Shown piece by piece: positions 1-28,446 of a DNA stretch of 64,000 bases. A program made the position numbers and the translations under genes. The stretch's first letter is position 1. Each line of letters starts with the position of its first letter. The stretch comes from Phytoseiulus persimilis (taxonomy: Eukaryota > Arthropoda > Arachnida > Mesostigmata > Phytoseiidae), in contig CM075103.1 in NCBI GenBank assembly GCA_037576195.1, positions 25,442,723 to 25,506,722 of the forward strand. Direction: 5' to 3'. The notes below the pieces were generated by a model, which did not search any database, had not been told where the DNA came from, and was given only the letters and a program-made list of their open reading frames with translations.

Positions 1-2266
1 CACCAGGGCTTATTTCAGCAGAAATGACGATGCAAAGGAAGTTTGACTTCTTCTTCCCTGCACCCTCACAACCGTCGTTACGGTTTCTTGGGTGTGGATA
101 CGATGAGGTCATCCTGAGTTGGTGATTCCTCGAAACCCATTTCTCTTAGCACTCTTCTGCACGTTCCAAAACGAAACCATTCGGTCTTCATCATCGTTGT
201 CTGTTTGATTCCCAACCGAAAGTGCGGGCGATGACATATCATTCGGGCCCTATATCAGGAGCAGCTGTACCGTCGATTGGTGCTGCTCACCGGTCCACAC
301 ATTCGCGCGAGGAGAAGAAGCACAGGCTCCATTTGATTTTTAGGTACAGCAGGGTTCTTAGACCTTATACCGCAAATATACCATCTGACCAAGCATACAC
401 GCCACGAGCATAACACGTCCGTAGTCGTCCGCGCCTCATGGCGCCCGCGGAACTCCTCCTCTGACAACTACGAGAAGATTACAGTAGCGTGACCCGTTGA
501 AGATCTGGAGTGCTTGTGACTAATTTCGCTCTTTATCGAACTTCAAACTTAGAATTTGTGCCAAAGCTCGCGAGGGTGCACCATGAACCGACAATGCGTA
601 CGAATATCTTCGCGAAGGAATATCAGAGTGTGTGTGACAACATCGACGAGGAGAATGCAGATGCTGACTTCGCCAGCTCCGTCGCCAGCGCTCGCGGAAT
701 CCTCGTCCACCCTGACAGATCCGGGAGGAAAAGCACCGGATCTGCGGTCTACTTCAGAGTAGCAGAGAGTCACCTGCAACCCTGAGGACAATGGTAACTT
801 CGTTCGCATGGATTCGTGTACATAGAGACCTTTAACGGATTAAGAGCGGTTCAACGTCCTGACGAATCGCTGGAAACCTGATGAAGACTAAATTCTCCCC
901 AAATCTCAGGAACCGGCCCGGAGCCATTCTTTACAACGTCACTATTTCAAGATTTGGCTCTGGTTATCGTGTAGCGAAATCAACGGGAGCGGAGCCTTCT
1001 GTACGCATTGCATGCTCTTTGCGAAAACTGAGTCTCTGTGATTCTCTGTGGGAGGCAGAAAACACCGTTGCGCGAGCATAGAGGTATCGGATTCCTGGAC
1101 TCGGGAGACGAAAGTACCAACGAACGCGATCTCCGCACTCGGCTCTGATACCGCTCAGATGCCGGCGACCATCTCCTGGGAGAGCATCTCAGCCATTCGA
1201 AGCGAAATGCGACTTATGTCGGTGGGAAAATCCAGACCGAAATAATCAAGGTTATTGGAAGAATAATCCGTAGAAAAATCATCAGCGGAAGCATCTGATC
1301 CGAATTCTGATCCAATTCCATTCTGATCCTTCCGCATCTGATCCAATTCTTTGCTCGCCGACGAATCGAGGGACGTCGACAACAGGGATCACTCACAATG
1401 TGCCTTGGGTGGTTCCCCCGGAGGGATCCAGGCAGAAATAAGAGCTGTCGTTCCACAAGCGTTCCATTTCCACTATCTTGTATTGGTGCATTTTAGCGAG
1501 TTCGTTTCGACACACTCGGCGGCCGATGTCTGTGCTTTCTTTTCAACATCCTATATGCGCGTAGGCTGGAGCCTCTCTGTGCCACTCGTTGGGTGGAGAG
1601 TTATCTAGCGTTAATCATCTTCAGAGAACTTCTTCTACCCATCAGTCATGCTCTACGAGAGATAAGGCAAGGAATCGGGAATGCCGCACTTCGAGCCCAG
1701 CAGCTAATCAATTCGATCTCTCAATGCGAGCTCGTGACGTCTCTGCTCATCATAGAAACCTTCTCTTCACTCTATCTGCCTTTTTCCACGAGAAAGAACT
1801 TGACATGGCTGCACTGGGGAAAGCGTACAACGTCCTCTCAGTTTTGGAAAGAGTTTGCAGAAAGTGATGCGGATGTGGTATTCAAAGCGGTCTCCGGATA
1901 GGTCTCGCAGCACTGCGCTAATCTAGATATCGACAACTGCATGCCTCGGCTGTGTGAACAACAAACTCTGAGAGAGAAGCTTCTCTCGAATACCACCAAG
2001 GATTATTTCCCAATTCCGACCTGCCTCCCATACCTCGATGGCTTCATTGAAGGATTCACATCGATGCTCACCGATTCGAGGCAGAATTTTGGGTATGGGT
2101 TTATTGATCTTGGCTCGGTTCGAGATAAGTTGGCATTCTGTCAGGGTCAGCCTTTCATTTCAGGTGCTTGCGCAGATCGTTTGGTCTCCTTTTCCCACTT
2201 TTTGAGGACAAGCTTTGTCTTGTTCACTAGCGATGGGTCCTGCATTTCGTCCGGGAGACTTAGTGC
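1..2266. other. no recognisable gene
   Basis: I see no reading frame with family similarity, no splice-linked exons and no clear RNA gene here. The open frames are short and overlap on both strands, as expected by chance in sequence of about 50% GC. It may be intergenic DNA or intron or UTR of a gene starting outside the window. Confidence 0.5.
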
Positions 2267-3300
2267 TCAGAGGAAATCATCGTCTGTGTGATGTGCGTCA
2301 TTACTTTCGAAGATTATGTGTTGTACAGTTTCTTCGTATGTGCCGCATTTTGGGCAGGTGTTGATGCCCTGTTGTTCGGAAAGTCCTCTAGTTGGCAGCA
2401 TTCCTGCTCTTGCTAGGGCTAGTAGACCATCCCCTCTTCGATTGCCGTAGAGGTAAGACCTTGTACCGGGGGAGGTTTTTCCCTGACGGTACAGGCTTAG
2501 GCTGTTTTTCAGAAGCATGTCTAACCTCCAGCTGTGCTCTTGCATTCCTCTAACTGTTTTTTTTTATCAGTGAGTTATATGCGTTAAGGGCTGGTGTTCC
2601 TTGACTCGCGTAAGTGTCTTATGCGAGAATTCTTCTCCCGGAACTCGATATTAGTGGCTCGATCCGGTCACAGCCGTATTGGTGACTCAGTGTCTGCGTT
2701 CGGGTGCAGAGTTCGGTCTGTGTTCCGAGTATCTCCATCATACTCAGGAGAGATCTCGGCCATCTCTCATTCGGCATGTGTTGGATACGTTTCATGTATC
2801 TGAGTTTGCTTTGCAGCTTCCCTGGCTTCGAATGGGGACCATCCAAGCTCTCCCAGTATGAGTTCATTGGCTACTTTGTGGCCTGATATGCCTAGGGCCC
2901 AGCGGCCTGCATCGCGTTGAGTCTTGTAGTTTCTTCGACGTGATTGTCACCGAGTTACTGTATGAAAGCTTGGCGACTGCGGTCGCTTTCCATTGGACTT
3001 TTGTGATTTCGAATCGGCTGAAGCTCCATATGGATGTGGCGTGCATTCTGTGTAGGGCAGTTGTGGCTTCTTGCTGCCAGGTACCTTCCTGTTTGTCGAG
3101 GTATCTTCTGTTGTCAGACAGTGTGATTCCAAGGTACTTGTATTAGTGTACGAGTGGTAGGGGTTGTCCTCGTATTTCTAGGCTGACGTGTTCGCCAGTG
3201 CTCAGTTTTTAGAACACGACTATGGCGCTCTTTGCGGGGTTGAAGGTAAGCTTTCTCTCGGTACCGAGTTCGCGAATTCGAACGCTGGAAAGCCAAATGG
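2267..3300 (-). mobile_element. LINE (non-LTR retrotransposon) 3' fragment, decayed
   Basis: Reading the minus strand from about 3300 to 2279, broken frames give the C-terminal part of a non-LTR retrotransposon pol. A thumb-like stretch around 3040-2950 contains MHATSIWSFSRF. A middle stretch around 2800-2700 contains KLRYMKRIQHMPNERWPRS. The terminal stretch around 2480-2290 contains RRGDGLLALARAGMLPTRG followed by a cysteine-histidine motif, CPKCGTYEETVQHI. That last motif is typical of the zinc-binding tail of arthropod LINEs. Frames shift several times and no endonuclease or complete reverse transcriptase core is visible, so this is a dead 3' fragment. The clade (I, R1 or Jockey type) cannot be decided by eye. 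Confidence 0.6.
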
Positions 3301-4761
3301 GTAAACTGCCCTCAGGATGAGCTTCCTGTAAGCGCGATCGAAGCTCTCAATCACTGTTCTGCGGCTGAACACCCGAAGATTTCCGCACTTCTCCGAATAT
3401 TCGCTCCCTTCCTCGCGACAACTGCCTCCCCGGAATAAAGTTTCAGTAGTGTGAGACTGCTCAAAACGTATCTAAGGTCTGTATTGAATGAAAAGCGTCT
3501 CAACTGATTGGGTTTCATGAACACTCGACGTGGAATTCTGGTCACGCCGGAAGAAGCAATTGATGTCATCGCGACGGATCCCAGAAAACTGAACATGAAT
3601 CCCCAGAAGTCCAAGTCGATATAGGCGAACTATGGTTCAATCGTGCTTTGAGCTGTTTTTCTGACAAGAATCTGGGATATGAGATCGATGATCCGTCAGA
3701 GTGTACTAGCACGAAGGCTGTAGCGATATCTCATTGATATTGCGCTGCTGAAGCTAATTTCATGAAATTTCATCGGTCGAGTCCGGCAACCGGACTCAGG
3801 TCGCCACCAATCCAGAAGGCGCTAAAAAACAGTCTGATGTCTGATAGCGGATCCGCTGTGTCAGCTATTTTGAAAAAAAAACTGCCCTGAGCGTTCCATC
3901 CCGCCGCCTCTCTCCTAATGCGTCGCCGCGACGAATCTCTAATCGGGACACACGGTGCAGTTACTCACCAAAGAATCGAGAGCTCAGCCGAAAAATGGCT
4001 CGTTCAGCGACTTCCCTTATATTTCATCAGACGATCATATACCCCGGAGAAACCCTGATCTATTGCATAACTTCGGAGATCAGATTTTCAAGTATGGTTC
4101 AACCATGCGTTGTTGGAAGAGGTGGTAGTCTATTTCCCGCGAGCTGCACAGCCAGTGCAGGAAACCAGTGACTTAATGTGGAGCGAGCAGTGGGAGCAGC
4201 TAGGAATACAATTCACAGTGTGTTCGCTGCTAGCTGAGCGACGATCATGTTCGCGGTTCTTCTGTTCATAGATCAGCCGCTAGTGTACATCCCTCGGATC
4301 TGTTTCTTTTTTTGTCCGATTGCTTCTTCGAGATTCGGTTGAGAATTGCTGATTTGAGAGCATTTCAAATTCAAGTCCCCACTTTCTTCATTCGTCAACT
4401 CCCAACGGGTTTGCGATTTTCAAAATGGGCTCGATTCGTCTCCTATCCCTCGCCTGTACCCATCAGCTCACGCACCCAGCGTGAACTCGAAAAATCCTGG
4501 AAGAATCCCCGCCTTCGAATCGAACAGTCTTAGATAGCGAATGGCATGATGAAGGTACAAACACTGGATGATCGATGCAGTGCATTGCTATGATGATCGA
4601 TGAGAAATACGTTTTCCGCGATCTTTGAGTTCACGCTGGACCCGCGCGCTAATGGACGCATATTGGAGGAGTCTTTTGAAGAGCAGTCGAACAAAGAAAA
4701 CAGCTTCCTTCTATTTTAGAAACTTCAAGTATATACAATTTGGATGTTCCCTCCTCAGTGC
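3301..4761. other. no recognisable gene
   Basis: Between the LINE fragment and the first cuticle gene no gene is recognised. A minus-strand open frame of 87 codons (3614-3351) has a hydrophobic start but no family similarity that I can name. The last part, next to 4762, should hold the 3' UTR of the cuticle gene; no canonical AATAAA is evident on the minus strand close to the stop codon. Confidence 0.4.
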
Positions 4762-5270
4762 TCAGTAATGTCCGTAAGCTCCTCCGTAACCGTGACTGAG
4801 AGCGACGGGGGCGCCGAAAGTGGCTTTGGCGATAACGGGGGCCGCTACAGCAGCTTTGGTGTAAACAGGGGCAGCGATCGCGGCCTTAGCAACAACGGGG
4901 GCGTTATGCTGGATGGAGACGTACGCGGAGCTCTTAGCAACTGGAGCAGCGGCAACTACGGGGGCGGCAGCCACAACAGGAGCGGCAGCGATTCCATGAC
5001 CATAACCTCCATAGGATCCTACTGCGGCTCCGTGGCCATAAGATCCTCCCAGAATAGCTCCGGCAGAGGCCGAAGTGAGGGCGGCAGCCACCAGGGCGAG
5101 GACGGTGAACTGGAAAGGAAGGATGCCACGTCTCAATTATTCAGAGCCGAATGATGCTTTGCGGACCTCTTAGTTTATTTTGTTGAAACGCTCGACGTCG
5201 ACATGAGCTCCAGAGGCGACCTGAGTCATCGGGTTTGGAACCGAATGGAGAGTTGACTCACAGTGTGCAT
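4762..5270 (-). CDS. Ala/Val/Gly-rich structural cuticle protein, copy 1
   Basis: Secreted low-complexity cuticle protein, expected to be laid down in the exoskeleton by epidermal cells. Two exons: 5270-5262 (ATG CAC ACT, only three codons, followed by GTGAGT) and 5109-4762 after a pyrimidine-rich acceptor ending CCAG; the intron is 152 bp and phase 0. The protein is 118 residues. A hydrophobic signal peptide (FTVLALVAAALTSASAG) is followed by a Gly/Tyr/His stretch (SYGGYGHG), repeats of the AAPVV type, the conserved segment AYVSIQHNAPVVAKAA, more AAPV units, and a Gly/Tyr/His tail ending AYGHY. There is no Rebers-Riddiford chitin-binding consensus. A second copy with the same architecture lies 3 kb away on the same strand (7928-8352). 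Gene identity is strong; which named cuticle subfamily it belongs to is not certain. Confidence 0.88.
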
Positions 5271-5320
5271 GTTGTTCAAGAGACTCGATGAGTTGTGTGA
5301 ATAACATCGGCAACTGGGTC

Positions 5321-5328
5321 ATTTTATA
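5321..5328 (-). promoter_or_regulatory. TATA box of cuticle gene copy 1
   Basis: TATAAAAT on the minus strand, 51-58 bases upstream of the ATG at 5270. This predicts a transcription start near 5295 and a 5' leader of about 25 bases. The second cuticle gene has a TATA box at essentially the same distance from its ATG. Confidence 0.65.
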
Positions 5329-5329
5329 A

Positions 5330-7876
5330 GGGCATCGCGACTGAAAATAAGAGAGAATGTTTTCTCCAAGCGAAGGAGTTAATTACCTGTCGGTAGTTGG
5401 AGTAAACACTTCCTGCGATGTTTACGGAAGCTGAATCAGTATTCTGGTCGTTTCGAAATCACAATTACTCGGAGCAATGTTTGACACGATACGTGCCGTC
5501 GTGTGGTCATTCTCCTGCTATTAAAGTCATTCTCGAAGAAGCGTTAGTTACGCATGAGAGCCGCTCAAGTAAATAGAGGCCGTCACGGGATGGGCCCCTT
5601 CTGTGCAAGGAAGATCCGACATTCTGGCAGCCCGGCCGTTTCTGGGTGAACGTGTTATGCAACCGTTATTCCATTGGTGAGTCACTGCTTCGGTTGACGG
5701 TTTCCAGGCTTGATTAGGAGGGGTGAATTTATGAGTTTGACTTCCCAGGAGATTTGCAGACCTTAAGTCAATCGAATCCGTACGCTCGTTGTTGTCTTCG
5801 GCCGATACATCCGTAGTGAAGCTCGTTACGCACCCAAACTCCTGTTGCACATAGCCTTTCCGATAACATGTATTGGGCTCCGCTGATGGCAGTATGCGGA
5901 CGCGTTCGTGTCTCACAGGATACGCGGTTTCGGAAGTATCGAACGCAGGGCATTGCGGAACGCCCCGATCTGACTTTTCCGATGTGTACTTCTAGGTTTA
6001 GGTTTTTGATTGAGAGCAGTCTTGAATCTGAATGATCGTATTCCTCTGTGATATTCATTGGGGCAATTCTTGTATGTTTCGTTGCGAGCTGGAGGTGAGT
6101 AGAGAGTTTCACTAGAACCATCAGATCACTAGAGCAATGTGACCTGATGCGACCGTGTTTGCTCATCGATAAGAGCCATAGGAAGCTTCGATTGCTACAA
6201 ATTACGCGATCTGTAATCACTAATTCCACTTTGAGTTCAATATGGCGGATTCAGGAGACTGCTGGCAATGCTGGAGGAAGGAGGTGCCAGGAAGACGACC
6301 AGAGAGGATGAGAGTGTCGATCGCCTGTGGGTTGGCCGGGACTAAGACCGTCGACTCAGGAGAACCGGAATCGGAATTCAATTCCTTCCTCTTTACCCGG
6401 TAAAAACTGACCTCTAACGCAGATCTTCTTTCGCAACGTCCGTTGGAAGGAGTGGGAGACGGCTCAAAGGGCGGCTTCTATTCCTCCGTCTTTACTACGT
6501 TACTACTTAAGTTTACTTGGCTTTCCGGCACCTGACCTGACGTAGACTTGCCGGATGTCGGATCGATCCAAATTTCGGTTTCTGCTCCGTAGACTGTCAG
6601 CCACACATTCCGATTCCATTTGTCCTGATATTTTCCACCCGATGATCCGAGAGTGGGGGACAGCTGATGGGACTGGGGGATATGACGCCCCGTGCCCCGC
6701 CTCCAGAGGTTTGCCTGGACTCCTCACGTATCTCCTCACGGTTGTTCACGATCAGCTCGGAAAGGTCCAGCAAACAACAGGACCAATTGAGGAGCAGGAG
6801 GGCTCGACATACCTAAGAAAGAATACGTGCAGGATGCACAAAAACTATCGTCTACCGTGAACGCGGTACCCTACAGCAGCAGCTCAGCAGTCCGACACCG
6901 TTGCAATGACGGCAGCGCGCGCGTTCACCTCGAGCGCTCGCGATCAATGACACGGTGGGAACGCCTCGTATTTCTCCTAAGAACTGTTGCCAACGTTATC
7001 CTCCACCAGTTCAGAGAAGCGTGGCATCCCGCGGAACAGCCCTCGATGCCGAAAACCCACCAAGGAAAATGAGCGAGCACACTCCTCAGTGTACGCTTCG
7101 AGCTCTCGCCTCTCAGTCAATATGCAAGAGGGACTCCCACATGCGTTTCATGGCCTCCGGCGAGCGATAGCAAGAGCGGAAGCTAGAATAGGATCCATGA
7201 CTGGTATCTCAGAAGAACGAAGCCTCTCCCAGGATGCAAGCCGGAAAACGGTTGATGGCATCGGGAACGTCTCCATCGCTCTCTCTTTGCGGATCTCGCG
7301 GGTTAGAGCCGAGATCCGGAACCCGCTGGGAAGCTTAGATATTGCCATGCGAACTTTCTTCGTATCAGCGTCCTTGGAACCTCAATCTCTCGGGGAATCC
7401 AGTATCCAGCTTCATTACTGATTGGAGGCTCCCGGGATTCACGAATATTTAATCTGCGATTTCCGTCAGAAAACACTCAGATTCCCGTGTCAGAATGCGA
7501 TGTATTTGGAGCTCCCGTGGAGACGATCTCGTGGTATTCAACGATCCTCTCTCGCTGGTAATCAAATTGTACCTCGATGTATAGGCCCCAACATGCCGTC
7601 TCTCCTAGCTACCGGATTCCACGATTACGGGCTCAAAGCGGCGTTTCAGATTTAAGTTCTTCGAGAACCGAGGATGATCTCGTCTCTGGAGAGGGAATAT
7701 CGTTGTGGTGTTGTTTCTCGTATGGGAAGAGAGGGGAAATGAGTCGATGGACGCTTGCTGGAGCATTGTGCAGCGGGATGCACACATGGCTCACTCACAT
7801 ACTTCGCGGGGTGGTCCCCGCTTCCCCCCGACGCGTTAATGCCAGACTTCCAGGTCCGTTGGGTGCGAAAGAAAAG
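5330..7876. other. no recognisable gene
   Basis: The stretch between the two cuticle genes holds only short frames overlapping on both strands, the longest a 153-codon minus frame at 6229-5768 that resembles nothing I know. No splice-linked exons, RNA genes or transposon domains were seen. The first few hundred bases may be promoter of cuticle gene copy 1. Confidence 0.4.
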
Positions 7877-7877
7877 T

Positions 7878-7883
7878 TTTATT
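7878..7883 (-). promoter_or_regulatory. poly(A) signal of cuticle gene copy 2
   Basis: AATAAA on the minus strand, about 45 bases beyond the stop codon at 7928, the expected place for the 3' end signal of the cuticle transcript. Confidence 0.6.
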
Positions 7884-7927
7884 ATCACAGACGTTCTTCC
7901 TTATGTACAGCACGCTGCTAATTTAAT

Positions 7928-8352
7928 TTAGTAATGCCCGTAAGCGGCTCCGTAACCGTGTCCGACAGCGATGGGAGCGGCGACGGCGGCTTTCGTATAA
8001 ACCGGGGCGGCGATGGCGGCCTTTGCGTAAACCGGAGCAGCAATAGCGGCTTTGGCAACAACCGGAGCGTTGTGCTGGATCGAGACGTAAGCAGAGCTCT
8101 TGGCGACGGGAGCGGCGGCCACGACGGGTGCAGCGGCAACAACAGGGGCGGTGGCGATGCCTTGTCCGTATCCTCCATAAGTACCGACGGCTCCTCCGTA
8201 AATCGCGCCAGCGGAGGTGGAAGCGATAACGGCGGCCATGACCGCGAGAACAGCGAACTTTTCGTACGTAAAACGATTTGGGTTAAATATCAGCCCTCAA
8301 AATAACCGTCTGATCCTAAAACTTCTATGATCAGTGTACTCACCGAGTGCAT
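7928..8352 (-). CDS. Ala/Val/Gly-rich structural cuticle protein, copy 2
   Basis: Paralogue of the cuticle gene at 4762-5270, with the same role inferred. Exon 1 is 8352-8344 (ATG CAC TCG, then GTGAGT) and exon 2 is 8257-7928; the intron is 86 bp and phase 0. The protein is 112 residues: signal peptide (FAVLAVMAAVIASTSAG), a Gly/Tyr region (GTYGGYGQG), AAPVV repeats, the same core AYVSIQHNAPVVAKAA as copy 1, three AAPVYAKAA-type units, and the end AYGHY. Copy 2 has one more AAPVY unit and a shorter Gly-rich head than copy 1. The identical gene structure (MH-S/T first exon, phase-0 intron, TATA position) shows a DNA-level duplication. No Rebers-Riddiford motif is present. Confidence 0.88.
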
Positions 8353-8403
8353 GTTTTAGGATGAGCTTGGGACCAACTTGATTCACTCTGGAATCGCCCC
8401 AGC

Positions 8404-8411
8404 TTTTTATA
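8404..8411 (-). promoter_or_regulatory. TATA box of cuticle gene copy 2
   Basis: TATAAAAA on the minus strand, 52-59 bases upstream of the ATG at 8352, matching the position of the TATA box in the paralogous gene. Confidence 0.65.
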
Positions 8412-8974
8412 TCTCATAGCAAACAGTGGTCGCGGATTTCTCAATTTGAGAAAGTACATCACGCTCTCTTGTTCCGTGTGTCATGTTGACCATAGTTAAT
8501 TGCTACGCTGAAGTGTGGCAACCAGAAGACGCGGAAGCCGTACTAAGTGAAACAGAAAACGAGCAGATCCCGGTCTGTGGTTTGCTGCTCGGTTCAGGCA
8601 ACAAATCAGCCAATACGTTTCATTACCGGTTGACACATTTCTGGAACTTGGAGGGTCGCCTCGTCTACCACCGGGCCCAGGGCAGCAGCGTATCCAGTAA
8701 TGGTCGATGGTGGGGGGAGGTAGAACCCCCTTTCGAGCAGCTGGGATACGGAACGAGCTGATGGTTGTTCCTCGTCAAAATTGGGCCGCACAGCATACGA
8801 GCTCGTGGTCGAGATGACATGGAAGCGCCTATGACGAACAAGCAGGAACCAAGATTCGAGTGGACGAGAACAGTCTCGATGACAACACCACCGCGTTTCC
8901 CCATGCAACGTGCACGTGCAACGTGAAAAGGGAGGTCGGATCGATACGGCAACTGCACAGCTAGGTAATTTGGA

Positions 8975-9245
8975 TGAAGGGTCTGGCGGGATAAGAGAGG
9001 TCCCAGTACCCCACCTCGACGGATCTCCCTAAAAACAGCAGGATCGTGTTGCCAATGTTGTACGTTTGTAACATTCGAAAGACGTGGAAAATCGTCGGGC
9101 GAAACCGGTAGAGTCCATTCCCATCTCCATCGCCTCTCCCGAGGAATCTCCAACCATCAAAGATCGTCCATTGAACTATTGATACCCGGTGTCCGGTACC
9201 TTTGCCGGAAGCTGGTACATACCAGTCTAGCGCTGGGCGGAACCC
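8975..9245 (-). repeat. dispersed repeat, copy A (inverted relative to B)
   Basis: Read on the minus strand this segment contains GATTCCTCGGGAGAGG, then a block ending CACGTCTTTCGAATGTTAC, then ACACGATCCTGCTGTTTTTA. The first two blocks recur in direct orientation on the plus strand at about 9400-9620 (copy B), and the last block recurs on the plus strand at about 10025-10055 (copy C). A and B therefore form an imperfect inverted pair separated by about 150 bases. No open reading frame or terminal repeat identifies the element class. Confidence 0.6.
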
Positions 9246-9399
9246 GGCGGCAGTCACGTGAGCACAGCATCATACGCAGCGATTACCGTTGGGGCATTCG
9301 CACCAATAAGCTGGAATCCCTCAGAGGTGGTTCTGGCAAGCACATATCGGATAATTGACTGCAGGTGGCCGTACTTAAGGATGCTGTGCTCGTGTGGTC

Positions 9400-9620
9400 G
9401 CCGCCGCGTACCACCAAGCGCTGGCCAGGTGCCAGCTCCCGACCTGGCTACCGGAGGCCGAGCTCTCGAGTTTCTTTTTCCCTCTGGAGAATGAGACAGA
9501 ATACGAACGAAGCTATCCCGACGGTCCAAGATTCCTCGGGAGTGGGGATGAAGATAGAGATCGGCTCTTCCGGTTGTCACTCGAAAATTTCTCACGTCTT
9601 TCCGATGTTACAAGCGCGTT
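9400..9620 (+). repeat. dispersed repeat, copy B
   Basis: This stretch contains AGATTCCTCGGGAGTGG and later CACGTCTTTCCGATGTTACA, which match copy A (8975-9245) read on the opposite strand with roughly one mismatch every four or five bases. It lacks the block ACACGATCCTGCTG found in copies A and C. Confidence 0.6.
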
Positions 9621-10009
9621 TGAATCGAATCCCCGGACTCTCTCACGGGGAGGGGGTCTGGTCGGTAACCTGCTCGGAGCGATAACTCCGATGGCTAAGC
9701 CTCGATCGGGATGACACTTCGCGGGTAGAACGAGAGTAATGGAAGCTACATTCTGGATTTCATCGCTTCTCGGCCGGTCACGGGAAGGGCATCAATCATC
9801 GAAATTGGAAAAGCCTCGATTTTTATGGCTTGGAAACAATGATCGCCGTTGGGAAGAGTTTTCCAAAAAGTTGTCGTTCGATGCTTTGCGCCCCCAGTTC
9901 TCGAGATGCAACGATTACAAGTTTGCTCTCGAGCATACGGATTCAAATAAATTGACGTCTATGAATATCGATTTAAGAGGATTCAGGTGACGGGGAGGCT
10001 GAAAATTTC

Positions 10010-10130
10010 AGGAATATGTTCTTTCACATTGGGAGCACGATCCTGCTGTTTTTAGGGCGAGCAGTTGATATGGGGCACCTGACCGGCCAGACCCTCTGAG
10101 GGCCTTCCATGGTTGGAGTTCTTCTCGAAT
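10010..10130 (+). repeat. dispersed repeat, copy C (3' part)
   Basis: This stretch contains CACGATCCTGCTGTTTTTAG followed by GGTGGGG- and CCAGACCCT-like sequence, matching the distal half of copy A. It appears to be a 5'-truncated copy in the same orientation as copy B. Confidence 0.5.
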
Positions 10131-10636
10131 CCGACGTCTCTGGGGAGAGATACGGGGTAGACGCATAGAGTACGACATTTCGCCGGGAACCCGGCGATTT
10201 TCAGGCTGATAAGATCGATTACCCGCTCTTCGAGCTGCAGAGCGATACCCGCTCTGTTGGGTTCGCCCCCTTTTGGAAAATCTCGTTGCGTGAGTGAGCT
10301 CATTTTGCGCATCTGGCAAAGAGGGGTGCGATACCAGCAGCGAGAGTAAGGGAATCCGACTTTGATAACGCTCTGTCGAAAGTCTGCACAGAACCGATAT
10401 CTCTCCTGTGCAATATCAGTGAACAGTCGAATTCTTTGAAAATTATTTCGCGTTTATGCCAAATATTTGAAACAAAACGGGAACCACTCATAATAAACAA
10501 AACTACTGCTGCTCCGATTCGTTTCTAAGCGACACATTGAGCGAATTCGTCCTTTGTACAATTGTACAGCCGGTCGCCTGATGTGCTCTACGATTCATCG
10601 ACTTGAGTGAATAAAATACCGGGGCAATGCCAACAC

Positions 10637-12333
10637 CTATTCTTGGATGGCGTCTCGTAATGGTATCGAGCAAGCTTCGGGCAGCGATTCCGAGTCTCCC
10701 GGCAAGTCTTTGGATTCGCAGTCGGCGATGAACTTCAGGTGCTCCATGTTCTCTCTTCGTCGATCTTCGAGGTGGTCTTTGAGGATTTCAAAGAACTTCG
10801 GGCGATTCAGTAATGTGTACGCGTTGTCGAGGATGAACATCGCCATCTTGTGGAGGCGTGGACTGCCGAAAAGGAACAAATCCAAACCCAGCTCAAGGCC
10901 CATACCGTAATCGCATTCATCGTTCGCGAAATTCACCAGCGTGATGATGTTCTGTATCGGACCCAACGCATCGGGTAGCGTGGCCTCCGAGGCGTTGTCC
11001 ACTAACTGCATCATTTTACGGAGTTCGACTGGAAACGAAACATCATGGAACAACGTTACAGGAAGTTCTCTTCCATTTATCCCAATAGCCCGATCGTGAT
11101 CGGAAGCAGTCAACGATGTCCCGGAGTCAGGATTCCGACTTCATGAACAGAACCTACCGTTCGAGACCGGCAGTGGTCGGTATCCCACTTCTGTTTTGTC
11201 ATCATACGGCACTACCATTCCAACATGGTGGAGGCAAGATCCTATAGCTCGAGTTTTGCGTTTTGACTTGTAGCTCACAAAGTGTTTATTTTGACTGAGT
11301 GCGGTAACTTTGGCTAACTGCTCCGTTAGGATCGCTGAAACGAATCGGGTTTTGCGTATCGATAGAGTCCTCGACATCTCTGATTCGTGCGGGTGACATC
11401 GGTCGCGCTGTTTTTCGGACTCACTTTTCTCATCGGAGTCCGCAGGACACTCCTTGATACGTTCTTTGAGTAGGATGTTCACTGTCTGCATGAGATTAGC
11501 ACCCACAATCACCAACTTCCAGGGATGGATGTCCTTTCTGCTCAGTTGTGAATTGGCGACGAAAACTGGGAACTCGTTCGGGTCGTCTCGGAAATAACCA
11601 AAGTGATTATCTGTTCCCACCTGAAAGTTTCGATTCAAGAGCGTGAATAGAGCAGCGACTTGAGTCCCGGACTGTGGTACGAGTGTCACCAGAAGAACGA
11701 CCCCAATTTCTCCGGCGAAATGCATCGTATAAGATCAGGATTTCAGGACGACAGAATTGATGAATACCTCGACCATGAGACTCTGGAACTCCGGTGGGTC
11801 ATAGTAGTATCGACAATGAAGGTTAAAAGCTCTTTTGTCGCTCTTGTCAACGTTGTCTCTCATCGCGAGGGCGTCGAATGGACCAATCAGCTTGAACTTC
11901 ACGAGTGGAACAAGAGCTTCCCTCGGATTTTCTGGATTCAACTCTTTGCAGTAACTCCAGAGATCAAAGAAGTCATCTGGAAACTACGATTCCGAATATT
12001 CAATCGATCCATGTCTTTGGGCACGGAAATGAGACATTTGAGCACTGAGGCACCAACCGGCATGTTGTAGCATTCTTGCAAGAACGCCGCGTCTTCATGT
12101 TGAGGTTCCGGGGCCACAGACTCAGAAATCTTCGGTTTCTTCATGGGCGATGCCGCTGTATTGGCTTTGGGGTACGCCTTTGCCAGATCGTCTTTCCGGA
12201 ACGGATGCGCGAATTCTCTAAGGTGTGCAGCGCTTTTCCGGTAGCAAAGAGGACCGTACTTGCAAAGTGGTTTTGTAGATTCTTCTTCGGAGTCTTCGCT
12301 TTTGCGCTTTGAAGATGAGGCTTCTGTAGTCAT
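10637..12333 (-). CDS. HPF1: histone PARylation factor 1 (HPF1), complete
   Basis: HPF1 binds PARP1/2 at DNA breaks and completes their active site, directing ADP-ribosylation to serine on histones. Four exons: 12333-12054, 11976-11768, 11620-11158 and 11028-10637. Introns are 77, 147 and 129 bp, all GT-AG with consistent phases, and the exons sum to 448 codons (447 residues). The N-terminus carries a PBZ poly(ADP-ribose)-binding zinc finger, C24-x5-C30-x6-H37-x5-H43. The HPF1 fold follows: LWSYCKELNPENP, LIGPFDALA, YYYDPPEFQSL, GYFRDDPNEFPVF, HHVGMVVPYDD, then FANDECDYGMGLELGLDLF. D354 and E355 in the last motif correspond to human Asp283 and Glu284, the residues that complete the PARP site, so the protein should be active. 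It is longer than the human protein (346 residues) because of the finger and a charged insert in exon 3. Confidence 0.93.
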
Positions 12334-12339
12334 GTTCGA

Positions 12340-13468
12340 GATTCCGTCAGTTCCCCCGGTTGACAGAGAAACTGGTCAAACCTGCGAGGAAACGTTCGTG
12401 AGTGCTCCATTCAGTTTGCCGAATCATTCTGGCGCTATGATGACAATTCCCAGTATGCTCCTGACTCCACGCTCCACGTAAATTCGAGAGCGATTGGTTC
12501 CCCCGATTGACTGACGAGAGCATCGTCAATTCGTCTCTCGATTCCGAACCGACTCAGGCAGATAGTTGTGATGTTCGATCGGATCCGACACCCAGCTCAT
12601 CTGTCACGCATGTCGTGAAACTGTGAGAAACTGATTCCTAGAAAATATTGCCCCCTCGCTCTTCCATTATTCTCGAGTTTGCGGTCCGTCTGTTTTCTGA
12701 TTCGAGCGCTCCCCTATGATTTTGAGGATGGAAACCTCGATTACGTATGACAGCAACGCCGCCTAGAAACTTTGCGCCAAACCCTACAATTGATACCTCT
12801 AACGACAGATGAGTGAGACTGAAACCTTGATCCTCTCTGAAAATCAAATTCGAAGCAGGCTTGCCTGACGGTTCTTCCCCGTCTCTGTTTGGTCTCCACG
12901 CCAAGTCTGCAGTCTCACGCTAAAGATAGAAAACTAAGATCTAATTCAAAATTTTACGAACTAGCGAAGACAAACACGCACCGTCTCGGCTAACCGCCCT
13001 GCGGGATGTCGTCTGCGCTCGGCATGCGTTCATTCTGGCGCTCAAGAGAGACGGTGCCTCTTGAGGAGCGCGATTTTTTGAATCCGTGGGGCACTCACGC
13101 TGATGGGAAGAGCGGTCGCTACACTCCACTCGATCCAAAGTGCTGACAGACTTAGCCCGAAGGCCCAATTTGCGGTCGGGATTCCTGAAGTGGGCTCTGT
13201 GAGAGAGCAGATCAGTGCGGAGCTTGTTAGACTCACCAGTCGAGTTCAATCGAAACGAGTCTCGAACGCGGCTGGTGCTGGTGCCGATGGTGCTCTCGGA
13301 CGGGGAACGGATTCGATGTTTACAAATATAAACAGATCTATTTGAAGCTCACATCGCTCGCATTCTGCGCTTGTCTCCCCGACGGATGGCAACAGTGATC
13401 AAGGGAGGATTGTGCAACTGAAAGCCGCTGGATTGGAGTGACCGTGTCTGCGCCAGGTCCTCGGGAGT
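12340..13468. other. intergenic / possible APC 5' region; no armadillo exons seen
   Basis: This lies between the divergent HPF1 start (12333) and the first recognised APC-like exon. I looked for armadillo-repeat coding sequence on the plus strand, as expected upstream of the 15-residue repeats in a full APC gene, and found none. Only short open frames are present. It probably holds the HPF1 promoter and either promoter or intron of the APC-like gene. Confidence 0.5.
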
Positions 13469-13486
13469 CAGTGTGCCGGACCTGTC

Positions 13487-16343
13487 ATGGATAAAAACAT
13501 GGGGCCCACGCTTCCAATGAAAATCTCGGGGGGCCCATTCTTGCTGCCTAGCAAAGCAGACATTGAGCCAATCGAGGAGCAGCCTTTCGACTTCAGCCGC
13601 AAGTACAATGAGGTGAGGAAGCAAACCAAGAGGTTGGAACCATTGAGGCGAACAGCAGAATCCTCAGAACGATACGAATTTATCGAACCTGCTTTTTACC
13701 CAGTAGCCATCCCGACATGAGATTTTCCTCTCAGCCTCAGTTTACGGAGTGTGGAGCCAATTCTATTCATCCGGCCCAACATCCTGATTTGAGGGCGTAC
13801 CCCTCCATGAGTCAATCCTACGTAGTTCCATTATGGCTTCCTGAGTTGGGGGGTGTTCGACTCTATCTACCCAACCCGAAACAGGCTACTCGTCCATCAT
13901 GCAGTGACTGCCCTCTGGGGACCTTTCTTCTATTAGAAGGCTCTAGAATATCTATTATGAAAGAAAACAGTCTACTCAAATCAGAGTCTCGATGAGTGTC
14001 GTTGGTACGAGCGCCTCATCTGTGTGGGTTAACAATGATCCTAAGAGCATCCCACGCGGCAAGAAGCCTTCTAATCTCCGTTTTGAATCTCTCTGGCAGG
14101 TGCTTGAAGAACCGGACTCAAAAGACCTCTCTTCAGAACCCGCGACGTATCAGGATGACGATATGCCTCGAGTATACTGCACTGAGGGCACTCCACGGCT
14201 CATCAGCCGCGCGTCGTCTGTGGGTGACCTCACGGGTAACGACAAGCGCCGTCCCGAAACCATTTATGAGCAGGAAGAGATCTCTCTAGCGAGTCGAACG
14301 GCCACCGCGAATGCGACTCCGCGGATCTGGTCGGGGAACGGATCGCCTACTTCGATGAACAGCTTCTGCATGAATGGCAATTCCCAGTCTGACACTCACT
14401 CCATAGTCTCCGAATTCAGCCGTCAGCCCTCTGGTCTGATTTCTCCCTCGGACCTGCCGGATTCGCCCGGTCAGACGATGCCTCCGTCGCCGAAAGATTG
14501 CCGTCCAGCGTACACGGGCGAAGCAAAGCATCCGTTCGACTATGCATATCCTTTACAGAACTCAACGCATATCCCACAAGCCGCTCGCTTCACGCCGATC
14601 GCATTGGATGAGGTCAAGCACGATGTTAAACCCACACCCCTGAATCTGGTGCGTCCCAATCCCGAACCCAGACAAATGCGCTCCTATGCTGACTCAAAAT
14701 CACTCATGGGCGACCAGTACACCCAGGAGGATTCTCTCCACAACTACCGCACCGAAGACACCCCGGCGAATTTGTCGGCAGCCACCAGTTACTCAGACCT
14801 GAGCAGTATTTGTCCGAAAAGCGATTGCCACGGGCCGGTTCCTAAACCGCGCACGAGGATGTCGAAAACGCCGTCTCAAGGCTGCAGTCCTCTGCCAACT
14901 CCTCACGATCTCTATGCCCCAGTGGAAGACACAGCAGTTAGCGGTCACACTCAGTTGCAGCTCCAAGAGAACTCGTTCAGTCTGGAAGATCAAAAGTCTG
15001 AGCCATCCTCCTCTCATTGGAAGCCGAGAACTCTTCCCCGGAAACTCCGGGACAGCCTTCCTACGAAAGACATGAGCTCATCTTCATCATGCAGCCACAA
15101 CAAATCCATGCCCGACTTGAACAAAAAACCGGTGGACACGCCGTCAGACTCAGACGATGGCGAGATCCTAAAAGACATGATCAACAGGGGCCGTCCGAAC
15201 AAGAAAGGAGAATCCTCTTCGAGAGCAGCGCAGAGCAAGAACCGGAGCAAGCCGGCTAGCAAAGACTTCGATTCGGATTCCGAATCCGACCAGCAGCAAA
15301 TCCTCAACGAACTGATCAAGTTGGGCCGGCCGACGTCCCGGAATCAAACCCTGAAATCCAAATCTAAACCCGACCAGAGGGACGATGAGTACCCGTCTTC
15401 GTCGTCATCATCCAAGGACAAATTCAAAGCCGCTCGGTCCATGGAAAGCTTGAGCGTCGCGCCGAAAGTTGTGAAGAAAGGCGCCACGAATTTCCGTGTT
15501 CAGGAACAGCCGATTCGAGGAGGCGAAGCCGTCATTCCCAAGTCGGCTGTCGCAAGAGCGCAGTCCCTTAAAGGGAACAAAACCACAGGCTACGATCCCG
15601 TCCATGATCGCCGGCAGACCAAAACCCCTGACCCAACAGAAGCCGGCAAATTCGATCCGGCTTTCCTGAACGGCCGCAGCAACAAACCGATTTCGAAAGT
15701 GAGCCCCATGCGCTCGTCCCCGAAGAAATACGCGGATGAGGACGACGAGCCCCAGAAGTCGGTGTTGCTCTCGCCTCTGCGGAGCTCGGTGCGACAGAGC
15801 CGACAGATATGCGTCAAGAAAACTGTTGAGCTCAGCGCGGAAACATCCGATGCGAGCTGCGAAGACACGCATCCTCCGTTGCCTCCAAAACCCCCGCAGT
15901 TCAGAGCTCCTCCGAAACCTCCGGCGGGCTCCCCAGAGCCCGTTCCCGCGCCTGAACCCGCAGCGTCGATGCCGGACATTGTGCAACGGATCCTCCCCGA
16001 TATTGTCTCGACGCAGCAGCCGGAAGAAGAGAACAACAACGACGTCGCCGAAGTCAAGATCGACGTACCGCCCGAACCGCCAGAGGACTCCGGAGATATC
16101 ACCGTGCTGAGCTTCAAGTTCACCGATTCCCACAGGAGCTACACCCGGAGATTCCTCGCGACCAATCAGTTCCACTGTGTTCTTAATTATTTGGCTTGCA
16201 AGGGTTTCCCTTCGGACAAGTACAAAATTGTCGTGCCAACTGTTCTCCGAATCAAAAAGGAGGTCACCGAAAACAGCTACGCCAAAACTTTGGCCGAACT
16301 GAAGATGGTTCCCAAGAAAACGCTCACCGTGAAGCCCCGATGA
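13487..16343 (+). CDS. APC-family protein with a C-terminal FAF1-like UBX domain
   Basis: APC proteins scaffold the beta-catenin destruction complex in Wnt signalling. Exon 13487-13612 (5' edge uncertain) ends in a 15-residue-repeat-like beta-catenin motif, EEQPFDFSRKYNE, followed by the donor GTGAGG. A fitting phase-0 acceptor lies at 13970, joining to the open frame that ends at 16343; an ATG at 13992 inside it gives 783 residues if used as the start. Numbering from that ATG: 20-residue-type repeats VYCTEGTPRLISRASSVGDL (61-80) and YRTEDTPANLSAATSYSDL (252-270); a catenin-inhibitory segment, SPSDLPDSPGQTMPPSP (151-167); two acidic Axin-site-like motifs, DGEILKDMINRGRP and QQILNELIKLGRP, where SAMP has become RGRP/LGRP; a proline-rich linker; and from about 691 a FAF1-like tail, PPEPPEDSGDITVLSFKF...RRFLATNQFHCVLNYLACKGFP...TLAELKMVPKKTLTV, which reads as a UBX (p97-binding) fold. 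No armadillo repeats lie upstream in the window. The UBX call is by remembered similarity. Confidence 0.75.
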
Positions 16344-16663
16344 GCTCATCGTGCCAATACTTTCTCAAGCCGTTACTGTATTCAACTTTTTAAACTTCAC
16401 AAATGACGTCACCTGTCGAAGCCATCGCGCTGGGTGGAGTTATGGGTTCGTTACAGCGCGGAAATTCGGAGTTTTATTAAATCCCAATTTTTTGTGGGAG
16501 GTTGTCATTCGGATGTTGATGCTGAAAAGAACGAATCGCAGTGCATGTGTTCAATACGCCAGTGTTCTTGTGTGCCAAACGAGCAATACCTTCAGGCAAT
16601 AGGGTTTTTTTCGTGACAACTTTCAAGAACTCTCCGGGGCTTGGATGAATAAGAGCAACACGC

Positions 16664-16669
16664 AATAAA
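16664..16669 (+). promoter_or_regulatory. poly(A) signal of the APC-like gene
   Basis: AATAAA about 320 bases after the stop codon at 16343, in the 3' flank of the APC-UBX gene and before the convergent PSMG1 gene. Confidence 0.55.
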
Positions 16670-16844
16670 TATACACTAAACGTTCGATAACAAGCGAACG
16701 AAGTGGCTTTTCCGTGATGTTCTCGATATCAGTCGGACCCGAGATAAAACTGAATCTGGAAGTTCCCATCTTCGAATAACGCGAGCTTTTGTATCGCACT
16801 TGCATATGCTGGCGGAATAATGAGTGAGCGTCTGTCATAGAACT

Positions 16845-25300: not shown

Positions 25301-25560
25301 TTGCTGGGATGTTAATCCGCACAGCACGTATGAGAGTCCTCGGCCGCGCTTCTATCGATTGCCTGATCGTTGAGGCAGACCACACTTGAAAAGACTTCCG
25401 ACTGCTGCTTTGAAAATCCCCCATGAAAAGAAGTTCACTCTGAGGCGCATTGATCGGACAGACCAGCGCGTGATTGGAATGTGTCGTGATGTCTCTCTCT
25501 TCAACCTTGCCGCGACTCATGGCGCAGTCAGTTGGTCTCGAACTCTGACATGAACGGGAG
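22386..25560. other. unexplained stretch with scattered coding-like fragments
   Basis: No complete gene recognised. On the minus strand between about 24200 and 23400 several protein-like fragments occur in shifting frames: VITVAEERPADYDVILRRCYFDVTD, then LGPRSQLRMFHGPHVVINEV, then NEETLDLSDSEDP, then DFMIVGSPRSRAPD, then TMPTLDVLLEEFRM. Stop codons interrupt them and I found no consistent splice set, so this may be an unrecognised spliced gene or a decayed one. On the plus strand an open frame of 133 codons (24415-24816) is unassigned. Confidence 0.35.
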
Positions 25561-25565
25561 CCTTG

Positions 25566-26675
25566 ATGATCACCGCGACCAGGAGAAATCTCGGTGGTAC
25601 AAGCGTCCCTCGTCCGCTGTGGAGCTCGCATACCACGAGGAGCCTCAGCGATACAATTTTCCAAGCGTCGTTGATCGCATTCGGAACGGGAACCGGTCTC
25701 AGCTCTCGAGTATTGGTGAAACGAATTTCCAGAGCCTTCCATTTGGTGACCCTCGTTTCGGTTCCTTTTGGCGCTCCCTTTGCCCTCTACGAGAGACTGT
25801 TTGGAACGGATTCGACTCCGATGAGTCTTTCGGTCTCGATTGCAACACTGGGCGTTGCGTCGTACTCAGCCACGACGACATACTCCATCATCATGATGTT
25901 CACGAAAGAGGGAGAAATAGAGCCGTTACTCCGAGGCAACGGGCGAGAACTATCAGACGTGTTTCTGTTCTTGCTGTATTCTGGGCTGAGCTTGGCGGAC
26001 GAAATCGCGTTATTTTTGCGGGGTAGAACATTGTTCTCCGCCTTGCAGGCCGCGGGTTATGCAAGGCTGGATCTGACGATGACAATTGTTGTCATGGTTT
26101 ATTACGACGCGACTCAAAATTTGCTGGGCCGTCTCCGAAGGCTGCATGAACATTCTAGCGAGGCCGCTCCCGACTGGAGCAGCTTAGTTTCTGAGAAGTG
26201 GAAGATTCGAGGCATGGTCAGAAAAATCAACTCTCTCTTTGCCTCATTATTGTCAGCATTGTACCTCCAGGTGTTCCTCTACCTGGCGTTTGTGTGGGGT
26301 CAGGTAATACAGAGCGGTTTCAATCTCGAGGGAGTTTGTACAACCATTCAGAGTTTCCTCAGCTATACTGTTATAATTTTCATGCTTGCATGGAAGTCAT
26401 CGCAAGTTCGGTCGCAATGTGCGAAAACGGAGGCCTTGTTGATGCGGCGCTCAAACAAAGATTCGGGAGTCGCGTACGATGAGCTCGATTGCTTGACTCA
26501 CTTCCAGTTCCGCGAGGATTGGGATACTCTGCGGATCGGCTGCTTCAGCCACAGCACGGAGAACTTCCTGAGCTTTTTGTCTACGGTGACAACATGCATC
26601 GCTGTTGTGCTTCAGTTTGATTTCGTCATCGTGCGAACGATCAATGAACTGTCAAAAAAAGCAGTGATTCGATGA
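25566..26675 (+). CDS. gustatory receptor-like seven-helix chemoreceptor 1
   Basis: Probable ligand-gated ion channel of the arthropod gustatory receptor family, expressed in sensory neurons; no ligand can be inferred. Single exon, 369 residues from the ATG at 25566. Hydrophobic helices are visible at roughly residues 50-70 (LVTLVSVPFGAPFALY), 80-105, 130-150, 165-190, 225-255 (SLLSALYLQVFLYLAFVW), 270-290 (FLSYTVIIFMLAW) and 335-360. The last helix holds STVTTCIAVVLQFDFVIVRT, which fits the TYhhhhhQF signature of this family with Tyr replaced by Thr. The second intracellular loop is long and charged. The neighbour at 27355-28446 is a tandem duplicate, and the lack of introns suggests descent from a retroposed or intron-loss ancestor. 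Confidence 0.8.
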   Translation: MITATRRNLGGTSVPRPLWSSHTTRSLSDTIFQASLIAFGTGTGLSSRVLVKRISRAFHLVTLVSVPFGAPFALYERLFGTDSTPMSLSVSIATLGVASYSATTTYSIIMMFTKEGEIEPLLRGNGRELSDVFLFLLYSGLSLADEIALFLRGRTLFSALQAAGYARLDLTMTIVVMVYYDATQNLLGRLRRLHEHSSEAAPDWSSLVSEKWKIRGMVRKINSLFASLLSALYLQVFLYLAFVWGQVIQSGFNLEGVCTTIQSFLSYTVIIFMLAWKSSQVRSQCAKTEALLMRRSNKDSGVAYDELDCLTHFQFREDWDTLRIGCFSHSTENFLSFLSTVTTCIAVVLQFDFVIVRTINELSKKAVIR

Positions 26676-27354
26676 CTGTGACTACGCCGTGAGAGTTGGG
26701 TGAGAGACTATCGCTTCTGGACCGAGACTCTATCCGAAAAAAACAACAGCGTGCGGTCGATGAAGAGAGAAGGGCGAGAGAGGGCCACTGAAGATTCCAT
26801 TCGAGAGTTCACGACAAGTTTCAGTCGCGAGGCTCGGCCGTCAACGAACAAGTTTCTGCAGAAACGTATCTTGTGATGTGCAGCTTTCTTCGCCGCGAGA
26901 CCCTACGTCTGAACTTCGTGTCATCCAACAAGCTTGAGAGAAGACGAGGATTCTCATCTAGAAATGAAATGCGATGGCAATCTTGGAGGGGACACGTAGT
27001 CGGCTTCCGCTTGCCGTAGCTGTCGATGATCATTCAATACTTGGACGGAGGACAATGGACACAATAGGGGTCGCAGCCGTTCAGGGTTGTGCCTTGGAGC
27101 AAAGGCGCATTCGACGGAGGTTTTCTGTACTTCACTGAACGATGAGTGGAGCTCGCCAAGTTTACCGTAGGGAGCTCCGGTAAAACGGAAGGGGCTCCAT
27201 TATGCATTCCGATCGCTTCGACCGAGACTCTATTGGAGAATCTGCTCGTGCCTCCTCTCGCACGTCGGGAGGCACGTCTTGATTGACTGAAAGGTTTCGG
27301 ACTTCTTATTCGAGCCTGTTGTGATCACCCTCGGCAAGGAAAACCCCGGAAGTG
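26676..27354. other. spacer between the two gustatory receptors
   Basis: No gene seen. The short string CGACCGAGACTCTAT-like (near 26720 and 27222) occurs twice, possibly a remnant of the duplication that made the receptor pair. Confidence 0.4.
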
Positions 27355-28446
27355 ATGACTCCCCCCCACCCGCGGGAGAGTTTCCCTACGAAAAGTACTT
27401 CAGGCGATGCGATATTCAGATTCTCTCTTATGGCCTCCGGAGCACGAATTAGTTCCAGTCCCCGAACGTGGATGAGCCGCACTCTGACATCTCTGTGTTT
27501 CACAACTCTAATTTTCATGCCATTCGGCAGCCCATATGAAGTCTACATCAAACTGGTCGTCAGAGATCCTGTCCCGATGAGCCTCTCGAGTATGATCGGA
27601 GCTCTGAGTTTGGTCTCGTTCAGTGTCGCCTCAATGTACTCCATTCTTCTGTTGTTGAGGAGAATGAAAGATATAGAGCCACTGCTGCAACGGAACGGGA
27701 GAGGACTTCGTGAGGTGCTCTTGTTCCTTTTCTGTTTCTCACCGAGCTTGGCTTTGGACATACTGCTGGCAGTTGAGCGTCGAACGATTTGGGCGGCCTT
27801 GCGAGCCGCTGGATTCGCGAGACTGGAGCTCAATTTGATATTGACCGCAACTGTTTACAACGACTTGGTTCAAGACTTGATATGCCGTCTCCGTTGGCTT
27901 CATGAACTTTCAAGCGGTTCTTCGGTCGATTGGAGCAGCTTGGTCTCCGAAAAATGGGACATACGCGACAGAGTCAGTAAAATCAACCAGCTGTTCGCCG
28001 CACTGTTGTCCGTGTTCTATCTTCAGGTGTTTTTTTCAGCCGGTTTCGCCTGGGCTCGCGCTATTGGGAACAGTTCCAGCTTCTACAAAGTGTGTTTGGT
28101 CACAGTGAATCTCCTGTGCTATACGTTCCAGCTCCTCATGTTGGCGCGGAAAGCAGCGGAACTCCCTTGGCAATGCTCGGAAACTGAGGCTGAGCTGTTG
28201 CAACGCTCGCACCTCGATTCAACATTCGAGCGTTGCGATCCCGTCCGCCTGAAACACTTCAAGCTCAACGAGCATTGGGATATACTGCGGGTCGGCTGCT
28301 TCGGTCACAGCACAGCGAACTTCCTGAAGTTTCTGTCGATTGTGACTACGTGCACGGCAGTTGTGCTCCAGTTCGACTTCGTCGTCGTCCGTGCAATCAA
28401 TGACCTTTCGAGGCAAGCTGGAAGTGGCAACTGGACGGAAGGTTAA
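27355..28446 (+). CDS. gustatory receptor-like seven-helix chemoreceptor 2
   Basis: Tandem paralogue of the receptor at 25566-26675, with the same strand, single exon, length and helix plan; 363 residues from the ATG at 27355. Shared segments include TSLCFTTLIFMPFGSPYEVY (helix 1 region), PMSLSSMIGALSLVSFS, IEPLLQRNGRGLREVLLFL, FSRLRWLHE-type loop sequence, WSSLVSEKWDIRDRVSKINQ and the C-terminal TTCTAVVLQFDFVVVRAIN. Many residues are identical to copy 1, most densely in the last third, as expected for the conserved channel-forming end of gustatory receptors. Helix boundaries are approximate. No upstream short exon was found for either copy, so I take both as complete. Confidence 0.8.
   Translation: MTPPHPRESFPTKSTSGDAIFRFSLMASGARISSSPRTWMSRTLTSLCFTTLIFMPFGSPYEVYIKLVVRDPVPMSLSSMIGALSLVSFSVASMYSILLLLRRMKDIEPLLQRNGRGLREVLLFLFCFSPSLALDILLAVERRTIWAALRAAGFARLELNLILTATVYNDLVQDLICRLRWLHELSSGSSVDWSSLVSEKWDIRDRVSKINQLFAALLSVFYLQVFFSAGFAWARAIGNSSSFYKVCLVTVNLLCYTFQLLMLARKAAELPWQCSETEAELLQRSHLDSTFERCDPVRLKHFKLNEHWDILRVGCFGHSTANFLKFLSIVTTCTAVVLQFDFVVVRAINDLSRQAGSGNWTEG

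Follow-up and report, generated by a model that had tools for sequence, protein, structure and literature searches.

Organization of the gene

The window, i.e. the whole stretch of 64 kb that was analysed (C3:25442723-25506722), belongs to a Phytoseiulus persimilis genome of 181 Mb in 127 contigs. On its forward strand lies a two-exon gene (exons 13499-13612 and 14100-16343) with a predicted product of 785 amino acids, in which repeats of the APC type are followed by a UBX domain. This model was obtained by comparison with three paralogues on C4 (C4a, C4b and C4c). The following features were assigned to the gene and its flanks:

13280..13498, plus strand: probable 5' UTR, whose alignment with the homologous C4 sequences includes an indel of a length not divisible by three
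13499..13612, plus strand: exon 1 (MGPTLP...FDFSRKYNE), its ATG at 13499 kept in all three C4 copies
13574..13612, plus strand: APC 15-residue repeat of the beta-catenin-binding type (Pfam APC_15aa, PF05972, E 2e-4)
13613..14099, plus strand: intron, GT..AG, phase 0, splice sites conserved in four copies
14100..16343, plus strand: exon 2, 747 codons plus stop, a single open frame
14160..14231, plus strand: APC 20-residue repeat 1 (PF05923, 33.1 bits in the genome search, E 1.6e-8)
14442..14486, plus strand: SPSDLPDSPGQTMPP, called catenin-inhibitory by the earlier note, similar to human APC
14730..14801, plus strand: APC 20-residue repeat 2 (PF05923, 35.7 bits in the genome search, E 2.3e-9)
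15144..15197, plus strand: acidic SAMP-position motif 1 (..EILKDMINRGRP), EIL.D.IN.GRP kept in the C4 copies
15285..15332, plus strand: acidic SAMP-position motif 2 (SDQQQILNELIKLGRP), SDQQQILNELI..GRP kept in the C4 copies
15873..16061, plus strand: proline-rich linker ahead of the UBX domain, read from the sequence
16062..16340, plus strand: FAF1-type UBX domain with PPEPP lead-in (Pfam UBX and FAF1 match)
16664..16669, plus strand: AATAAA polyadenylation-type signal, CAATAAATATACA being kept at the aligned position in the 3' flank of C4c

An earlier note on this DNA had described one uninterrupted frame. The frame 13947-16343 is indeed open up to position 16343 and, counted from the ATG at 13992, comprises 783 amino acids, but this reading conceals the intron and leaves the 15-residue motif in a separate exon. 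Since the intron 13613-14099 joins the two exons, the first 36 residues of the 783-amino-acid reading are encoded by intronic codons, and a start at 13992 was rejected. The ATG at 13487 was rejected as well, because the three paralogues have CTG at this position, whereas the ATG at 13499 is conserved. By blastn, the region 13280-13707 is 72-73% identical to the C4 copies, with a 1-base indel in the alignment. Between C3 and C4c, the exons are 77% and the intron 53% (221/419) identical.

Several other genes and gene fragments were observed in the window. On the minus strand, a gene for HPF1 that includes a zinc finger of the PBZ type occupies 10637-12375 (Pfam HPF1, E 6.6e-24 in 10640-11140; PBZ, E 1.5e-10 in 11941-12375). 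Two tandem frames of 373 amino acids (25554-26675 and 27325-28446, plus strand) look chemoreceptor-like by eye and gave no Pfam match at E <= 0.01. They are followed by retrotransposon frames (30472-34410, plus strand), the first of which (30475-32739) matches aspartyl protease and reverse transcriptase, and by spectrin-repeat frames at 41873-49252 (plus strand). The latter are probably alpha-spectrin exons; the sole part tested, 41876-43858, matched Spectrin with an E-value of 1.5e-130.

APC-derived region

The 20-residue repeats of APC bind beta-catenin. Two of them had been proposed for the gene, and PF05923 was in fact found twice; Pfam APC_r matched at two sites of the open frame 13947-16343 (E 3.3e-16). 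Exon 1 contributes one 15-residue repeat, whose APC_15aa match reached 21.8 bits at a cut-off of 19.4. The SPSDLPDSPGQTMPP segment was also correctly recognized by the earlier note, as residues 108-173, which include it, matched the human APC chain 1th1_C (phmmer, E 9.6e-5). In the C4 copies, the sole change within this segment is a replacement of G by S. The two acidic motifs described at SAMP position are present and conserved between C3 and C4. However, both read ..GRP and have lost the SAMP letters, and the SAMP profile (PF05924) matched neither the 783-amino-acid frame nor the two motif fragments. With SAMP lost, the usual Axin tether is therefore missing.

Armadillo exons upstream of the gene were sought in the three plus-strand frames of window positions 1-13650, where neither Arm nor APC_rep was matched at E <= 1; the HPF1 exons on the minus strand intervene there. 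Among the 61 Arm matches of the genome scan, none resides near C3:25.44 Mb, the nearest on C3 being located at 21.97 Mb. The profile PF16629 (Arm_APC_u3) gave no match, a null result which does not show absence. Furthermore, profiles of the basic and EB1-binding regions did not match the 783-amino-acid frame, in which APC_r and UBX were the only Pfam matches at E <= 10. Thus, a full APC scaffold, as assumed earlier, is not supported, since matches to armadillo (window 1-13650, plus strand), SAMP, basic and EB1-binding regions were all lacking.

UBX domain

A UBX domain with a FAF1-style PPEPP lead-in had been claimed for the end of the frame, and both the Pfam UBX profile and matches to FAF1 affirmed it. 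The profile search suggested by the earlier note returned the two APC_r repeats and UBX, the latter with a marginal score: it amounted to 17.1 bits (E 0.0064) for the whole 783-amino-acid frame, short of the curated threshold of 21 bits, and to 22.5 bits (E 1.4e-4), above that threshold, for the last 98 amino acids. The C4 copies scored below it, with 20.2 bits for the one fragment tested and 19.7-19.8 bits for all three in the genome scan. In PDB, human FAF1 was the best match of the last 98 amino acids (E 3.6e-11). Seven of the 12 PDB sequences matched at E <= 1 were FAF1, while the other five were unrelated proteins with E-values of at least 0.16, leaving FAF1 as the sole clear relative of this domain among solved structures. 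The UBX domain of the genome's own UBXN7 found UBXN7 best in PDB; therefore, the PDB set holds other UBX domains too.

The domain and human FAF1 share 32 of 82 aligned residues, with a score 28 SD above 500 shuffles. For a slightly shorter segment, all four copies gave 31 identities in 81 positions (22-24 SD). Together with the recurrence of the junction in four loci, these values exclude a chance resemblance. The window domain scores 136 with FAF1 and at most 59 elsewhere, and human FAF1 UBX scores 139 with the UBXN7 of this genome, slightly above the 136 obtained with the window domain. The assignment to FAF1 is based on best hits rather than on a tree. Neither UBA nor UAS was matched at E <= 10 in the 783-amino-acid frame.

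According to PMC5389986, UBX domains are as a rule p97 adaptors whose R..FPR loop inserts into the p97 N domain. This motif is absent from all four copies. The TFPRR loop of FAF1 is replaced by TVLRIKK in C3 and by TVFCIKK in the C4 copies, the loop as a whole being three residues longer, while an RRF stretch resembling that of FAF1 is retained. The altered loop, already remarked upon in the earlier note, thus holds for the whole set of copies, and standard p97 binding is not expected. Accordingly, the proposed link to p97/VCP was weakened and is not supported by the sequence.

Paralogues and selection

A genome search with the UBX segment disclosed four strong loci, namely the window and C4:16.930, 16.957 and 16.988 Mb (82-83% identity), and one weak match (E 1.1) with a stop inside. 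Each of the four loci carries an open frame of 723-798 amino acids and both 20-residue repeats. Homologous DNA of C3 and C4 (blastn) comprises 13280-13707, 14070-16359/16385 and 16517-16728. As the intron was kept, the sequences indicate that the C3-C4 duplication is DNA-based. Since three paralogues on another chromosome share the architecture, a mis-join is strongly argued against; mis-assembly and a separate FAF1-like gene were rejected, because the junction is common to four loci on two chromosomes. The fusion is thus real, as the earlier note had surmised, and the comparison of the copies indicates that the APC-derived repeat region and the FAF1-type UBX domain form, within one gene, a conserved family in this genome. 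No relatives of the gene were found in the viral_contigs and genome_contigs databases.

The C4 region at 16926-16993 kb (L011, L035, L037, L013) is an inverted duplication carrying two of the copies, C4a and C4c. Its compared pieces are 96-99.5% identical, and one fully overlapping piece is 100% identical.

To estimate selection, dN/dS was calculated by the Nei-Gojobori method for C3 versus each C4 copy. For the whole protein, dS was 0.61-0.62 and dN 0.19, giving a dN/dS of 0.30-0.31. The ratio was 0.11-0.12 for the UBX domain and 0.33-0.34 for the body, with dS lying at 0.60-0.72 over these comparisons. The last 90 aligned residues constitute the most conserved stretch of this length between C3 and C4c (rank 1 of 659). 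Relative to the body, UBX is enriched in silent as opposed to replacement changes, with p 0.004 in Fisher's test, calculated with rounded counts and sites that are not independent. In the joined-exon DNA alignments, all gaps were multiples of three (11/11 in C4a, 11/11 in C4b and 13/13 in C4c), and none of the four frames contains an in-frame stop. These data indicate that the protein is under selection since the C3-C4 split, most strongly on UBX. Among the three young C4 copies, dN/dS was 0.76-0.92 at a dS of 0.012-0.025, and because of these values the recent copies may be relaxed, with little recent constraint.

Related genes elsewhere in the genome

The armadillo region of APC was located on the minus strand of C37 (L031, L033), a small unplaced contig of 25 kb (E 1.9e-55 to human APC; APC_rep, 36.4 bits). 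It belongs to the one armadillo-bearing APC gene found in the genome, the Arm matches read, out of 61, being those at C1:28.64M, C1:41.2M, C1:28.68M, C2:27.2M and C2:43.2M and on C35 and C37, with L032 (C4:18.41M) excluded. No 20-residue repeat was found in C37:1-17000 on either strand with the HMMER filters off. Both repeats of the window score 51-54 bits with the model used. It derives from repeats of the genome itself, so that a strongly diverged repeat on C37 could escape it. In the genome-wide APC_r scan, eight of 24 matches belong to the four APC-UBX loci and none to C37. The only other one over the cut-off (C1:52147724, 21.0 bits) was discarded, since its translations showed nothing APC-like by eye. 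As the armadillo APC of C37 shows no 20-residue repeats, APC seems to have its parts distributed over this gene and the window gene, judging by the profile matches. This division may have come about by fission or by duplication with complementary loss.

Other putative members of the pathway were encountered as well. Two neighbouring Axin genes reside at C1:12078-12092 kb, in each of which RGS, beta-catenin-binding and DIX regions were matched, one RGS match reading across two stops. Three genes on C1 (L025, L026, L027), two of them very similar and one divergent, we take to be beta-catenin/Armadillo-like. Genome-wide, the SAMP profile yielded three weak matches, all away from the window, of which C1:26221068 lies just above the cut-off (20.3 bits).

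Attempts were also made to identify a standalone FAF1. In exon-by-exon genome scans with FAF1/UAS (PF21021), UBA_4 and UBX, a canonical FAF1 was not found. PF21021 matched once, in the FAF2-like gene L046, an exon of which had no PDB hit at E <= 0.01. The UBA_4 scan gave 14 matches, seven of them over the cut-off; eight of the 14 were placed, seven by reading and one by its neighbour. Judging by their frames, six of those over the cut-off are presumably UBXN7-, DCUN1D-, FAF2-, TDP2-, ILRUN- and UBALD-like. The seventh, at C4:18088214, was assigned to p47 solely by its position 1.5 kb before a p47-like UBX frame, and an eighth, weaker one is, again from its frame, presumably UBE2K-like. All 12 matches of the UBX scan were placed, including the window and the three C4 copies. 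From reading the frames, we take the others to be UBXN7-, p47-, UBXN6- and FAF2-like, UBXN1-like (two matches) and UBXN4-like (L004). The UBXN7 name is also supported by the best PDB hit, and L004 matched in PDB only 'UBX domain-containing protein 2/4' (E 0.02). The match at C2:2702015 was dismissed, as its frame contains nothing UBX-like by eye. Since a canonical FAF1 was not found, the UBX domain may stem from a lost FAF1; a divergent FAF1 with many introns could, however, escape a scan of single exons, and its loss is therefore an inference.

Discussion

The gene described here resembles APC (Drosophila Apc/Apc2) in possessing 15- and 20-residue repeats as well as SPSDLPDSPGQTMPP. Unlike APC, it has no armadillo, SAMP, basic or EB1-binding matches and ends in a UBX domain. 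Human APC is far longer than 785 amino acids. With FAF1 (Fas-associated factor 1; Drosophila Caspar), the protein shares the UBX domain including the PPEP lead-in, with 32 of 82 residues identical, but it lacks UBA and UAS matches, its FPR loop is replaced by one three residues longer, and the domain sits on an APC fragment. Another UBX protein concerned with Armadillo/beta-catenin turnover is Armless/UBXN6, which acts with Ter94/p97 in Drosophila Wingless signalling. In contrast to the window protein, Armless has coiled-coil and PUG domains and no detected Arm binding, and its UBX domain is dispensable for Armadillo turnover and for Ter94 binding (PMC4219662). The gene on C37 recalls the APC match of a ctenophore, which is confined to armadillo similarity (PMC2959043); the rest was not found there, whereas P. 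persimilis has the repeats in another gene. A literature search, which omits most subscription papers, yielded no APC-UBX fusion. Within the same bounds, no papers on APC in predatory mites or on APC and Wnt-beta-catenin signalling in Mesostigmata were found.

The reading that we favour, though by no means firmly, is that the gene is functional, belongs to a set of at least four in this genome and encodes an armadillo-less, APC-derived and trans-acting beta-catenin adaptor with a repurposed UBX domain. The 15- and 20-residue repeats would bind beta-catenin, and the protein would act in trans, alongside Axin and the separate armadillo APC of C37; the task of a single APC would then be shared by two proteins. 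A FAF1-like gene is the probable source from which the UBX domain was captured, and the domain would serve as a docking module that recruits a ubiquitin-handling or complex partner to repeat-bound beta-catenin. With the FPR loop lost, a partner other than the standard N-domain pocket of p97, or an altered mode of p97 binding, appears more likely. The predicted effect might be either degradation or protection of beta-catenin. The loss of SAMP, the marginal Pfam score of UBX, the high dN/dS among the young C4 copies and a FAF1 assignment by best hits count against the adaptor. It is conceivable, yet rather doubtful, that APC was split into two complementary genes, one for an armadillo APC devoid of beta-catenin repeats and one for a repeat protein lacking armadillo, and that in the latter the UBX domain of a vanished FAF1 took the place of the SAMP/Axin tether as a new docking module.

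We rank the trans-acting adaptor above a decoy, an armadillo-less protein that binds beta-catenin through its repeats and keeps it from taking part in transcription or from reaching the destruction complex, with UBX only stabilising or localising the decoy. A decoy would agree with the beta-catenin-binding repeats being kept while SAMP and FPR are lost and no armadillo match lies upstream in the window. It is nevertheless unlikely in our opinion, as UBX is the most conserved part of the protein, which suggests a specific contact. Below the decoy we place the model derived from the earlier note, in which UBX recruits p97/VCP to the destruction complex and thereby extracts beta-catenin. This model draws on the rule that UBX domains are p97 adaptors (PMC5389986), on FAF1 papers which name Wnt and beta-catenin degradation, and on Drosophila Armless, which acts with Ter94/p97 on Armadillo turnover even though its own UBX domain is dispensable (PMC4219662). 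Against it stands the replacement of TFPRR by TVLRIKK or TVFCIKK in a loop three residues longer in all four copies, and we regard it as improbable. Finally, as the Pfam UBX score is marginal, a mis-assembly, a pseudogene or the merging of two adjacent genes into one reading had to be considered. Such an artefact is largely refuted by the recurrence of the junction at four loci of two chromosomes, by whole-codon indels, the lack of stops and a dN/dS of 0.30, and by the conservation of splice sites and polyadenylation signal; we give it hardly any credence.

The armadillo and beta-catenin-binding halves of APC normally form one chain, and which APC parts need physical linkage for beta-catenin destruction is a long-standing question. 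Halves of APC residing in separate genes represent a natural experiment on this linkage. As UBX is conserved more strongly than the APC repeats, the fusion appears to be used, and with the loss of the p97-binding loop the partner of UBX becomes a testable question. The fusion could alter the route by which a protein of Wnt signalling is broken down. If APC was indeed split into two genes as outlined above, P. persimilis would possess a two-component APC that acts in trans and is linked through a domain known from ubiquitin and segregase biology.
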